64,000 bases of DNA from Haloterrigena gelatinilytica (GTDB lineage Archaea; Halobacteriota; Halobacteria; Halobacteriales; Natrialbaceae), in the NCBI RefSeq assembly GCF_013342145.1, contig NZ_JABUQZ010000001.1, positions 3,038,001 through 3,102,000 on the forward strand. Direction: 5' to 3'. Positions 24,005-27,385 of the stretch are shown here, piece after piece (within the stretch, counting starts at the first letter, position 1; every line of letters begins with the position of its first letter). A program made the translations under genes and the position numbers. The notes beneath the pieces are model-generated. The model saw nothing but the letters and a program-made list of their open reading frames with translations. It was not told where the DNA came from and did no database searches.

Positions 24005-24397
24005 ATGGACCGAAGAAAACTCCTGAAAGGCGCGGGCGCCCTCGGAGCGGCGCTCACCGGCCTCGGTGGCGCGTCAACCGCGGCGGGTGGACACAGGTAC
24101 CCGTCGGTACGGATCATCAACACGAACGAACCGCTTCGAGGGGGAGAGTGGTTCCGCCTCACGGCACGGATCACGAATCACGGATCCGCGCGACTGCGCG
24201 GGAACGCACGGCTGATCGTCGGTAACGATCCGGATCAGGTCGATAGTCGGTACGTGTCCCTCGCGTCGAACCAGAGCACCACTGTGACGCTCGGCTACAG
24301 GACCTACCCGGTTCAGACGAGGGACGTGTTCCCGGTCCGGGTCAGGTGCGAGAACGGATCCGATTCTCGGATCGTCAGCGTCGCTCCGGCGCCGTGA
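24005..24397 (+). CDS. Tat-exported small protein with Ig-like (CARDB-type) fold
   Basis: Protein of 130 residues. The twin-arginine signal DRRKLLKGAGALGAALTGLGG occupies residues 2-22 (RR at 3-4) and a signal-peptidase site is likely after AAGG or TAA. The mature part is about 100 residues of beta strands resembling a CARDB/Ig-like domain: VRIINTNEPLRGGEWFRLTARITNHGSARLRG (read in parts) and SRYVSLASNQSTTVTLGYRTY. Such domains are structural or adhesive. It has no catalytic motif. It is the first of three Tat-exported proteins in a row and runs in the same direction as them. Confidence 0.75.
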   Translation: MDRRKLLKGAGALGAALTGLGGASTAAGGHRYPSVRIINTNEPLRGGEWFRLTARITNHGSARLRGNARLIVGNDPDQVDSRYVSLASNQSTTVTLGYRTYPVQTRDVFPVRVRCENGSDSRIVSVAPAP

Positions 24398-24563
24398 CTC
24401 GGCCGCATCGACCCCGACGACCGCCCCGATTCGGTTTCTTTCGCACGGCCGGACCGCGAGGACGGCACCGATCTACCACTTCGGACACCGGAGTGTGCCT
24501 GCACGTCTGGTACGGGGATCCGGTCCCGACGTGCGACCGACCTGCGCGATGGTCGTGGGATTC

Positions 24564-25469
24564 ATGGATCGAAATCACGCGGACGAAACCGATGCGGCGG
24601 AAACGGACGGAACCGAATCGACGACTACGAGCCGGCGTCGACTACTGCAGACGACGGCCGCGACGGCGGTCGGCGGCGCCGGACTCGCCGGCGCGTCGGG
24701 GTCGGCCTCGGCATCGGGCTTTACCGGCTGCGACGACTGGCTGGATGCCCCCGCGGAGTACCCGGAGATCGACCTCACCAGCAGCAATCCGACGGCGACG
24801 AACGTCGACGACTTCGGGGACGACCCGGTCGTCGTCTTCGTCCACGGCTGGCTCGGCCGCGAGACCAGCACCGATCAGGCCTACACCCTCGAGCGAGCCT
24901 TCGAGGAGGCCGAGTACGACGGCCGCGTCGTCGCGGCGTCGTGGGCCTCGGATACCCTCAACTACTGGAAAGCCGAGGGGACGACCGAGACGGCCGGGCG
25001 GCGCCTGGCATCGTGGCTGGCGACCGACCGCATCGACCTCGAGGAGACGACGGTTCGACTGGTCGGGCACTCGCTGGGCGGCCGGCTCTGTCTCGAGGCG
25101 CTGGCGGTACTGGGCGACGACGCGACCGTCGACAGCGTCGCGCTGGTCGGGGCGGCCGCCGACGACGACTCGGTCTGTACGGACGGCGAATTCGCCTACG
25201 GCATCGAAACCGGCGCCGACGCGGTCTTCAACTATCACTCCGAGAACGACGACAGCGTCTGTTACGGCTACGAGATTCAGTCGCTCTCGAGCGGACTGGG
25301 CTGTGGCGGCGCCGACTGCAGCGGCGGCTGGATCACCGACGACAGCGGGACGACGCCGGACGACTACACCGACGTGGACGTGACCGCCACCGTCGCCGAT
25401 CACTGTGCGTATATCAAGCCGGAGGTCGGCTGCGTGCCGCAGATGGTCGAGGACTTCGAGTCTCAGTGA
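24564..25469 (+). CDS. Tat-exported alpha/beta hydrolase (lipase/esterase-like)
   Basis: Protein of 301 residues. A Tat signal with SRRRLLQTTAATAVGGAGL lies near residues 29-48, after an unusually long polar lead of Asp, Glu and Thr residues. The mature part is an alpha/beta hydrolase: VVVFVHGWLGRETSTDQAY is the oxyanion loop, LVGHSLGGRLC is the nucleophile elbow (G-H-S-L-G), and HCAYI near the end supplies the likely catalytic His. Six cysteines in the mature protein suggest disulfides, fitting an exported enzyme. The substrate is unknown; triacylglycerol lipase or esterase is possible. ATG at 24564 is used because upstream in-frame starts add sequence before the signal that lacks coding bias. 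Confidence 0.85.
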   Translation: MDRNHADETDAAETDGTESTTTSRRRLLQTTAATAVGGAGLAGASGSASASGFTGCDDWLDAPAEYPEIDLTSSNPTATNVDDFGDDPVVVFVHGWLGRETSTDQAYTLERAFEEAEYDGRVVAASWASDTLNYWKAEGTTETAGRRLASWLATDRIDLEETTVRLVGHSLGGRLCLEALAVLGDDATVDSVALVGAAADDDSVCTDGEFAYGIETGADAVFNYHSENDDSVCYGYEIQSLSSGLGCGGADCSGGWITDDSGTTPDDYTDVDVTATVADHCAYIKPEVGCVPQMVEDFESQ

Positions 25470-25861
25470 CGTCCACGCGACAGCCGCTGTTTACGCGCCA
25501 TCCGCTGTTTCTCCGATAGACGCGAGTAGTTCGTTCGGGACACTGCGTCCCGAAGGGGGCTCGAAAGAGATCCGGACGAAATCGAGTGTTCCGCTCTCGG
25601 ACGGAGACGCCGAATAGATTCGTTCCCCGGATTGCGAAGAACCCGACTCGCGCGGCCGCGGCGCTATTCTACGACCTCGGCTCGAGGATTGTCCACGTTC
25701 GATCGTCCGTTGCTCGAACCGCGTCCCCGAACGGCCCGGAGAGGCGTATAAAACGGCGAACGAGGTATCGTTTCAATTTTGCAACGATATGGTAGAGAGT
25801 TAATTATTGCTGTGTGGCTGTCAATAACAGAATACGAAATTATCATCTGCCCAATTGCGTC
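25470..25861. other. Intergenic region of 392 bases with a perfect hairpin and a promoter
   Basis: No protein gene. TTCGGGAC / GTCCCGAA with a five-base loop at 25534-25554 is a perfect 8-base hairpin in the trailer of the hydrolase gene. The TATA box and palindrome of the next gene are listed separately. Confidence 0.6.
25747..25789 (+). promoter_or_regulatory. TATA box and start-site palindrome of the curlin-like gene
   Basis: TATAAAA at 25747-25753 is a strong archaeal TATA box, placing transcription start near 25775-25780 and leaving a leader of about 85 bases. The inverted repeat TATCGTT, ten bases, AACGATA (25766-25789) straddles that start, a usual place for a repressor site. Confidence 0.55.
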
Positions 25862-27385
25862 ATGGCTGACAATCACGGAAACCAGGACGGACTGAAGCGA
25901 AGAGGCTATCTCAAAGGAATTGCAGCGACCGGACTCGGTGCCGGCGCCCTCGTAACGGGTACCGGCCGTTCACACGCGGACGCGGACGGCGCCCGCGACA
26001 TCGACGGCGACAGCGTGTATCTGGTCTTCGGAGCCGACTCGTCCGAAGCCGATCTCGACTCGTGGGTCGAAGCGCACGGGGACGAGATCGCCGCGGGGTC
26101 CCAGAGCTCGACCGCGCAGGTCATCCAGTATCAGGACGTCTCCCAGCTCAACGTCTCCCAGCAGGGCAACGCCGTCAGCATCGCGATCGACGGCGGCGAG
26201 GCGACGGCGGCGCAGCAGGCCGACCAGAACAACGCCAACACCCAGGCCGGGAACGCCGAATCGGTCACCGTCGAGGAGGAGACGACCGACTGGACGTTCA
26301 CCGGCGTCGGACAGGCGTACGTCGTCTTCGCCGAGGAGACCGAGTGTCGGGAGTTCACCGGCTTGGTCGTCGGCGAGGACGCCTATCAGAGCGAGCAGTC
26401 GGCCGAGGCGGCGATCGATCAGAGCCAGGAGGTCGACCAGTACAACTACAACAGTCAGAACACCGCGGTCGCGATCGCAGCGAACGGGAGCCGATCGCGG
26501 GCGTACCAGCGCAGTTCGCAGACGAACGAGAACTACCAGCACGCCGACGCCGTCGCGGCGAACATCGGCGACGGCGACCGTCAAGAGGCCGACGCGTCGG
26601 TCGAGCAATCCCAGGCGGTCTCGCAGCTGAACGTCAGCGAACAGGGCGTCGCCATCGCGATCGCCGTCGGTAGCGGGAGCGTCGCGGAGGCGTTCCAGGT
26701 GAGTTCGCAGGGTAACCTGAACGAACAGGTCGCCGACGCCGCCGCGATCGACTTCGATTCGAAATCGCTCGACGAAGTCACCGCCAGCGCCGACATGGTC
26801 GGCTCGGTTTCGGACGAGAAGCTGACCCGCTCGAAAGCCGGAGCGGAGCAGTCGAACGCACAGGCGGCGTCGGCCGACGTCACGCAGGTACAGAGCGTCG
26901 GGCAGGAGAACATCAACCTGCAGAACGCGGCCGTCGCCGTCGGGATCGACGACAGTCAGGCGACGGCCCGACAGGAGAGTTACCAGGGGAACTTCAACGC
27001 GCAGGTCGCGTCGGCGGAGGCGCTGAACGTCGATAAGTCCCACCGCAGCACGAATGCGGTGGTGACCGGGACGGACAGGAGCGGCGACGGGTCGTGGGCG
27101 GTCGCCTACGACACCGGGAACGGCGAGAGTTCCCAGCAAGTCGCCGAGGTCGACATCGACCAGTTACAGCTCGTCGAACAGCTGAACGTCAACGAGCAGT
27201 TCGGCGCGGTCGCGTACGCCACGGACTGCGGCGACGCGGTGGCGGAGCAGCTGAACTACCAGGTGAACGAGAACGTGCAACTGACCGAAGCGCGCGCGAG
27301 TAACGAAGGCACCGGCGACGGCAAGAACGGAAAGAAGAAGAAAAAGAAGAAAAAGAAGAACGGAGGCGAGAAGCAGCGCTGTTAA
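25862..27385 (+). CDS. Tat-exported protein with curlin-like Gln/Asn repeats and polylysine tail
   Basis: Protein of 507 residues. Tat-type signal KRRGYLKGIAATGLGAG lies at 12-28. Five repeat units follow at about residues 85-128, 186-230, 248-292, 341-384 and 430-475. Each reads roughly Q-x-V-x-Q-L-N-V-x-x-Q-x-x-A-V-A-I-A, a short turn, then A-x-Q-x-S-x-Q-x-N-x-N-x-Q. The alternating pattern with periodic Q, N and small hydrophobics is like curlin (CsgA/CsgB) repeats that stack as a beta-solenoid amyloid. The protein ends in nine lysines (491-499) and a terminal cysteine, very odd in an acidic proteome. Function as a surface fibre or matrix protein is inference. No curli secretion genes are nearby. 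Confidence 0.8.
   Translation: MADNHGNQDGLKRRGYLKGIAATGLGAGALVTGTGRSHADADGARDIDGDSVYLVFGADSSEADLDSWVEAHGDEIAAGSQSSTAQVIQYQDVSQLNVSQQGNAVSIAIDGGEATAAQQADQNNANTQAGNAESVTVEEETTDWTFTGVGQAYVVFAEETECREFTGLVVGEDAYQSEQSAEAAIDQSQEVDQYNYNSQNTAVAIAANGSRSRAYQRSSQTNENYQHADAVAANIGDGDRQEADASVEQSQAVSQLNVSEQGVAIAIAVGSGSVAEAFQVSSQGNLNEQVADAAAIDFDSKSLDEVTASADMVGSVSDEKLTRSKAGAEQSNAQAASADVTQVQSVGQENINLQNAAVAVGIDDSQATARQESYQGNFNAQVASAEALNVDKSHRSTNAVVTGTDRSGDGSWAVAYDTGNGESSQQVAEVDIDQLQLVEQLNVNEQFGAVAYATDCGDAVAEQLNYQVNENVQLTEARASNEGTGDGKNGKKKKKKKKKNGGEKQRC

Follow-up and report, generated by a model that had tools for sequence, protein, structure and literature searches.

A five-repeat Gln/Asn protein of Haloterrigena gelatinilytica and its haloarchaeal family, resembling bacterial biofilm amyloids in design

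The window, a stretch of 64,000 nucleotides from Haloterrigena gelatinilytica, contains a gene with an ATG start which, by the open reading frame list and by direct reading, codes for a secreted protein of 507 amino acids with five repeats (Table 1). The open reading frame had been taken for a gene and it is one: it is under purifying selection (dN/dS 0.21-0.48 against four congeners) and its homologues keep an invariant lattice of Gln and Asn. The leader, KRRGYLKGIAATGLGAGALVTGTGRSHA, is of the twin-arginine form, as the earlier note had it. This assignment was made by reading the leader, in which there is a twin-arginine motif, an uncharged stretch and an A-x-A-like site with predicted cleavage approximately near residue 40; the NCBIfam TAT model matches below its cut-off only. 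The leader has no lipobox Cys, the first Cys of the protein being residue 159. Tat export was rightly said to be unlike that of curli, but it is ordinary here, 39-55% of haloarchaeal secreted proteins using this route (PMC2945643). A basic tail was also described as unusual for a salt-in organism; only the last ~20 residues are basic, and the mature core has the acidic composition usual among haloarchaea (66 Asp and Glu versus 14 Lys and Arg). The window also contains a Tat-signal protein of 130 amino acids (24005-24394, + strand) with a CARDB match below threshold and, downstream of it, a Tat-signal alpha/beta hydrolase (24495-25466).

Table 1. Features of the five-repeat gene, with positions in the window
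Feature	Position	Strand	Basis or remark
AATAACAGAATA element	25805-25825 (approximate)	+	~40-50 nt ahead of the start; putative shared element (regulatory or leader)
Five-repeat secreted protein, whole gene with stop	25862-27385	+	Open reading frame, full-length homologues, purifying selection
Twin-arginine signal peptide (KRRGYLKG, uncharged stretch, cleavage SHA/DA)	25862-25981	+	Direct reading; leader type kept in most Tat-clade members
Conserved N-terminal segment (YLVFGAD ... helix), residues 48-78	26003-26095	+	F56 and G57 invariant; model
Repeat 1, residues 79-135	26096-26266	+	Family alignment; genome-search match
Repeat 2, residues 177-233	26390-26560	+	Family alignment; genome-search match
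Repeat 3, residues 239-295	26576-26746	+	Family alignment; genome-search match
Repeat 4, residues 332-388	26855-27025	+	Family alignment; genome-search match
Repeat 5, residues 424-480	27131-27301	+	Family alignment; genome-search match
Lys-rich C-terminal tail KNGKKKKKKKKKNGGEKQRC	27323-27382	+	Only (AAR)6 or longer tract in the genome; in-frame differences among congeners, flanks kept

The N-terminal segment, with its two residues invariant in the family alignment, is predicted by AlphaFold2 to form a strand and a helix at low confidence. The first Gln of the five repeats stands at residues 89, 187, 249, 342 and 434, and the spacing (98, 62, 93 and 92) is irregular because the linkers differ in length. 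Five Gln/Asn repeats of about 44 residues had been reported earlier; the number stands but the length does not, 44 being the Q-to-Q core only of a conserved unit of about 57 residues, which consists of two strands of about 25-30. The consensus of the family alignment is QxAxAxVxQxQxVxQxNVNxQxxAVAIAxxGSxAxAxQxxxQxNxNxQxGxAxAxN. The pattern Q...Q.N is found 10 times and Q.N.N.Q 8 times, while the maxima in 5000 shuffles of the protein's own core were 4 and 2, respectively. The Gln/Asn positions are invariant in every repeat of 31 homologues and likewise of 68 non-redundant homologues, and since none of the five repeats of the latter has lost the lattice it is not a product of chance. The earlier note would have taken a lack of homologues with conserved repeat phase, or a fold other than a beta-solenoid, as refutation; such homologues exist. 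Counted from the first Gln, the even positions of the strands have a mean entropy of 0.46 bits, 53% Gln/Asn and 1% charged residues, whereas the odd ones have 2.10 bits and 28% charged residues. One face is therefore a nearly fixed zipper of polar and small residues and the other is variable and partly acidic.

A first AlphaFold2 model was set aside (mean pLDDT 49) and a core model built with 68 homologues was used instead (mean pLDDT 67, pTM 0.64, 133 residues at 90 or above, repeat centres at about 90-97). Each repeat is modelled as a pair of long strands, of about 30 and 25 residues, and a tight turn. The repeats are thus predicted to be beta-rich with two paired long strands, arranged either as a wide solenoid or as an antiparallel meander; the beta-solenoid proposed earlier would be the first of these, and the model, in which long paired strands are predicted with high confidence, is compatible with both arrangements. 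Foldseek gave no significant structural match in the PDB with either model, and nothing significant among viral models. CsgA and two FapC structures were the top three PDB entries returned with both models, none of them significant; the matches to FapC have E 0.3-2.2 and TM below 0.15, and with TM-scores of about 0.05-0.14 the predicted model superposes on no amyloid in the PDB. Sequence links to solved structures were chance matches only, e.g., to Met aminopeptidase (through poly-Lys), NrdI and PhoQ. Direct-coupling analysis, at Neff 35, gave nothing but noise for single pairs, and averages over diagonals were taken instead, giving weak support: for neighbouring repeats they are greatest on the in-register diagonal, and an in-register excess is also present between non-adjacent repeats.

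Pfam and NCBIfam contain no named family for the protein, and no description of it was found in the open-licence literature. The family is defined by the FGAD N-terminal segment followed by five in-phase Gln/Asn repeats (A1/A2 profile), all of which the window protein has. The genome search found relatives in 84 of 391 Halobacteria genomes, by named records mainly in one family, Natrialbaceae (Haloterrigena, Natrinema, Natronococcus, Natrialba, Natronorubrum, Halovivax, Halostagnicola), and outside it in Halalkalicoccus, Haladaptatus, Halegenticoccus and Halomicrococcus. In a phylum-wide sample a single-repeat profile matched within Natrialbaceae, the family of the window, only. The closest named relative is that of Haloterrigena salina (95%). 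An alignment-based scan of the genomes yielded 57 large-gene loci; a scan of genome contigs with the single protein gave no match, its peptide patterns having probably been too narrow. The large proteins examined repeat by repeat all have five repeats.

Three types of members can be distinguished: Sec-exported without a tail, PGF-CTERM-anchored, and Tat-exported with a Lys-rich tail. Several family members are of the PGF-CTERM type, with long acidic tails ending in an archaeosortase signal (L027, L031, L032, L034, L083, L103, L112, L114 and L122); there are also relatives without any tail. The window protein lacks a PGF motif and a transmembrane C-terminus. It belongs to the Tat type, which forms one clade with a support of 89/84 for the 13 Tat rows alone and of 100/99 when a Haladaptatus copy with an unassigned leader joins them. 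This clade is spread over Haladaptatus, Halalkalicoccus, Natronococcus, Natrinema and Haloterrigena, and most of its members retain the RRGYLKG-type leader.

Near the large Sec-type gene there is a divergent small gene for a secreted single-repeat protein in 32 of 41 loci, these being all loci not classed as Tat, a few of which carry PGF-CTERM tails. The signal peptide there, MKRAL...GFAGTAAA, is shared, and the window's own genome has a Sec-type paralogue with two small genes adjoining. No divergent small partner was found within ~7 kb in 11 Tat-type loci, and the window gene has no conserved neighbour outside the genus. In two Natronococcus genomes the Tat type is the only large member, yet 2-3 small genes are kept, in one of them (G034) beside larC; the Tat type may stand in for the Sec type there. 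The small proteins have about 105-190 amino acids (L035:5416-6143, L037:7180-7962 and L038:6941-12016, all on the - strand); their genes lie close to larC and the large Sec-type gene, arrayed in tandem or divergently, and they are candidates for minor or nucleating subunits. Between larC and the small repeat genes there is also a Ser/Thr-rich secreted protein with repeated FPWGAVIHATDxDTGxTDIEVIVDAD-type segments (L035:4415-5050, - strand). At 43 of the 57 large-gene loci (L070-L126), against 1.5% of random stretches, an element ATAAC[AG][AG]A precedes the start by 40-100 nt; this count is inflated by the relatedness of the loci. In the Sec group its form is commonly GATAACAAAGTCTGT, often with ACAGA/TCTGT arms around it.

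The earlier note suggested a curlin-like amyloid and a profile search against PF07012. The amyloid-like part of this holds as a design, the protein being secreted, with Gln/Asn repeats in phase and beta-rich by prediction; the curlin part was rejected. Neither the five-repeat protein nor any of its 31 homologues matches PF07012 at the curated cut-off, while PF07012 does pick out a genuine curlin-repeat protein at another place in the genome (E 2.8e-36), which serves as positive control. Aligned by hhalign to the curlin repeats of that protein, the repeat profile has a probability of 1%. The spacing is Q-x3-Q-x-N-x3-Q in units of ~57 residues versus the curlin kernel N-x5-Q-x4-N-x5-Q in units of ~22, and by consensus and hhalign there is no QX10Q kernel with ~22-residue strand-arc-strand rungs. 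CsgG (PF03783) is found in none of 61 genomes, with four bacterial controls positive; its absence is expected, since an archaeon has no outer membrane. With the lack of a significant fold match, all this speaks against a true CsgA/CsgB homologue diverged in sequence, which we consider most improbable, although the Gln/Asn spacing, the secretion, the partner-like small proteins and the genuine PF07012 protein in the same genome would agree with it. Kinship to curlin is not detectable with the tools used, and a working like that of functional amyloids survives as an analogy. The likeness to CsgA/CsgB (PMC10192328, PMC3521004) comprises Gln/Asn ladders, secretion, in-phase repeats and a one-faced strand pattern; besides the differences given above, the five-repeat family has a fixed repeat number.

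In a survey of curli by Dueholm, curli-like repeats were mentioned for one archaeal protein only (PMC3521004). The control protein mentioned above is encoded at L036:7841-8590 (- strand), approximately C1:1864841-1865590 of the window's own genome (C1:1864927-1865379 in a narrower span). It has 249 codons and about eleven repeats of 19 residues, and was found in Haloterrigena only (4 of the 391 Halobacteria genomes). It shares the genome, secretion and Gln/Asn repeats with the five-repeat protein but is unrelated to it by profile and, in this sample, restricted to the genus. It may be the archaeal protein of the 2012 survey.

The design appears closest to FapC/FapB of Pseudomonas (PMC12392863; PDB 9nqd, 9u4u) rather than to CsgA (PMC10192328). 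Both have a fixed small number of imperfect repeats with linkers of variable length, each repeat being expected to be one cross-beta layer, a highly conserved Asn/Gln network and an extracellular location. Both also have a related second protein, here the small single-repeat partners, which belong to the Sec-type paralogue. The differences are that there are five repeats of ~57 residues here versus three in FapC, and that an outer-membrane export system is inapplicable in an archaeon. Imperfect repeats, Asn/Gln network and variable linkers are a design property and not proof of descent; hmmsearch found no match to FapC chains and the structure search no significant one. The sheath protein SH of Methanospirillum (PMC10593813) is likewise archaeal and extracellular with a proposed amyloid-like architecture, but comes from a different organism group; PDB and Pfam searches gave no sequence link to it, and the structural comparison was by Foldseek against the PDB only.

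We propose, with a probability of roughly 0.5, that the window protein is exported by Tat and has a structural role at the cell surface or in the biofilm matrix, forming fibres from stacked beta layers; it is probably self-assembling. In the fibre-forming model each ~57-residue repeat would be one layer of two long beta strands. The five layers would be stacked in register, held by Gln/Asn/Ala ladders in the interior, and the variable acidic face would point outward. The edges of the stack would be open like those of CsgA or FapC, and end-to-end joining of monomers into fibres would therefore be expected, the small single-repeat proteins coded elsewhere in the genome possibly taking part. The model is supported by the Gln/Asn positions being invariant (31 and 68 homologues), by the alternation of the faces (0.46 versus 2.10 bits, 1% versus 28% charged), by the two long strands per repeat in the core model (pTM 0.64), by the in-register coupling of neighbouring repeats (weak, Neff 35) and by CsgA and FapC heading the Foldseek results (none significant). 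The small genes in 32 of 41 loci, like FapB/CsgB beside FapC/CsgA, their retention in the two Natronococcus genomes with the Tat type alone, and the PGF-CTERM tails of other members also support it. It is weakened by the lack of a significant Foldseek match (TM ~0.05-0.14), and by the lack of a conserved neighbour beyond the genus and of a divergent small partner in the 11 Tat-type loci. A fixed number of five repeats would fit a discrete folded protein equally well. Such a protein, a beta-rich surface adhesin or S-layer-associated protein with its repeats in one closed or capped domain and no fibres, would also agree with Tat export, which usually implies folding before export, with the PGF-CTERM anchoring of relatives, typical of surface proteins, and with NG/DG tight turns, which would suit hairpins. 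Each repeat, however, presents a near-invariant face of Gln/Asn ladders, as is more typical of solenoids and of stacked cross-beta cores, and the small single-repeat partners suggest co-assembly; we regard the non-polymerising adhesin as a serious but rather unlikely alternative.

If the fibre-forming model is extended to the whole family, one may tentatively imagine a haloarchaeal amyloid system separate from curli and Fap, with a five-layer large subunit, small single-repeat subunits, Sec or Tat export without a dedicated channel, and interchangeable C-termini, the window protein being the Tat version, exported folded. The C-termini (none, archaeosortase anchor or Lys-rich tail) would then decide between release of a fibre, its anchoring in the membrane and its retention by charge. 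Biofilms of Haloferax volcanii bind Congo red and thioflavin T, and the only possible gene offered was an acylphosphatase homologue (PMC4180959). For many Natrialbaceae and Haladaptatus strains in culture the five-repeat family provides named, testable candidates for matrix proteins, and its Tat-exported member poses the question whether an amyloid-type subunit can leave the cell folded and still polymerise.

Nine consecutive lysines (residues 491-499) and a terminal Cys507 are present as described before. The Lys9 tract is the only (AAR)6 or longer tract on either strand of the 4.55-Mb genome. In congeners it is replaced in frame by KKKKKEEKK, K6 or KKKKRKK, and the following NGGEKQRC or a similar flank is retained. 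In the Tat clade the tails are Lys-rich with a net charge from about +22 to about -4, and since this charge is not conserved, the Lys9 run itself probably arose by slippage in a tail where lysine is tolerated or preferred. In the fibre-forming model the tail would most likely tune retention by non-covalent contact with acidic glycans, the S-layer or DNA, because its position is taken by a PGF-CTERM anchor or by nothing in other members. Compatible with this model, and about an even bet, is that Lys9 is a neutral microsatellite expansion without a function of its own and that only the Lys-rich character matters, if anything. The in-frame variation of the AAG/AAA tract between stable flanks and the unconserved charge agree with this; the recurrence of Lys-rich tails across the clade (+18 to +22 in Natronococcus jeotgali and Haladaptatus DYF46) and the tract being the sole one of its kind in the genome do not. 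The tail could conversely be a specific anchor in place of PGF-CTERM, electrostatic through the Lys run and disulfide-bonded through the terminal Cys. The same position as the PGF-CTERM tails would fit, as would the Cys kept in five Haloterrigena copies, two Haladaptatus copies and some Sec-type proteins, but it is absent from most of the rest of the Tat clade, the net charge varies and molar salt strongly screens electrostatics, which makes this an improbable explanation. The binding or anchoring signal proposed earlier is thus weak, with the Lys-richness common to the clade in its favour and the range of net charge against it. The homologue of Haladaptatus sp. DYF46 (L082:10390-10593) ends in a His/Lys-rich tail of KKKHRHG repeats, which may bind metal.
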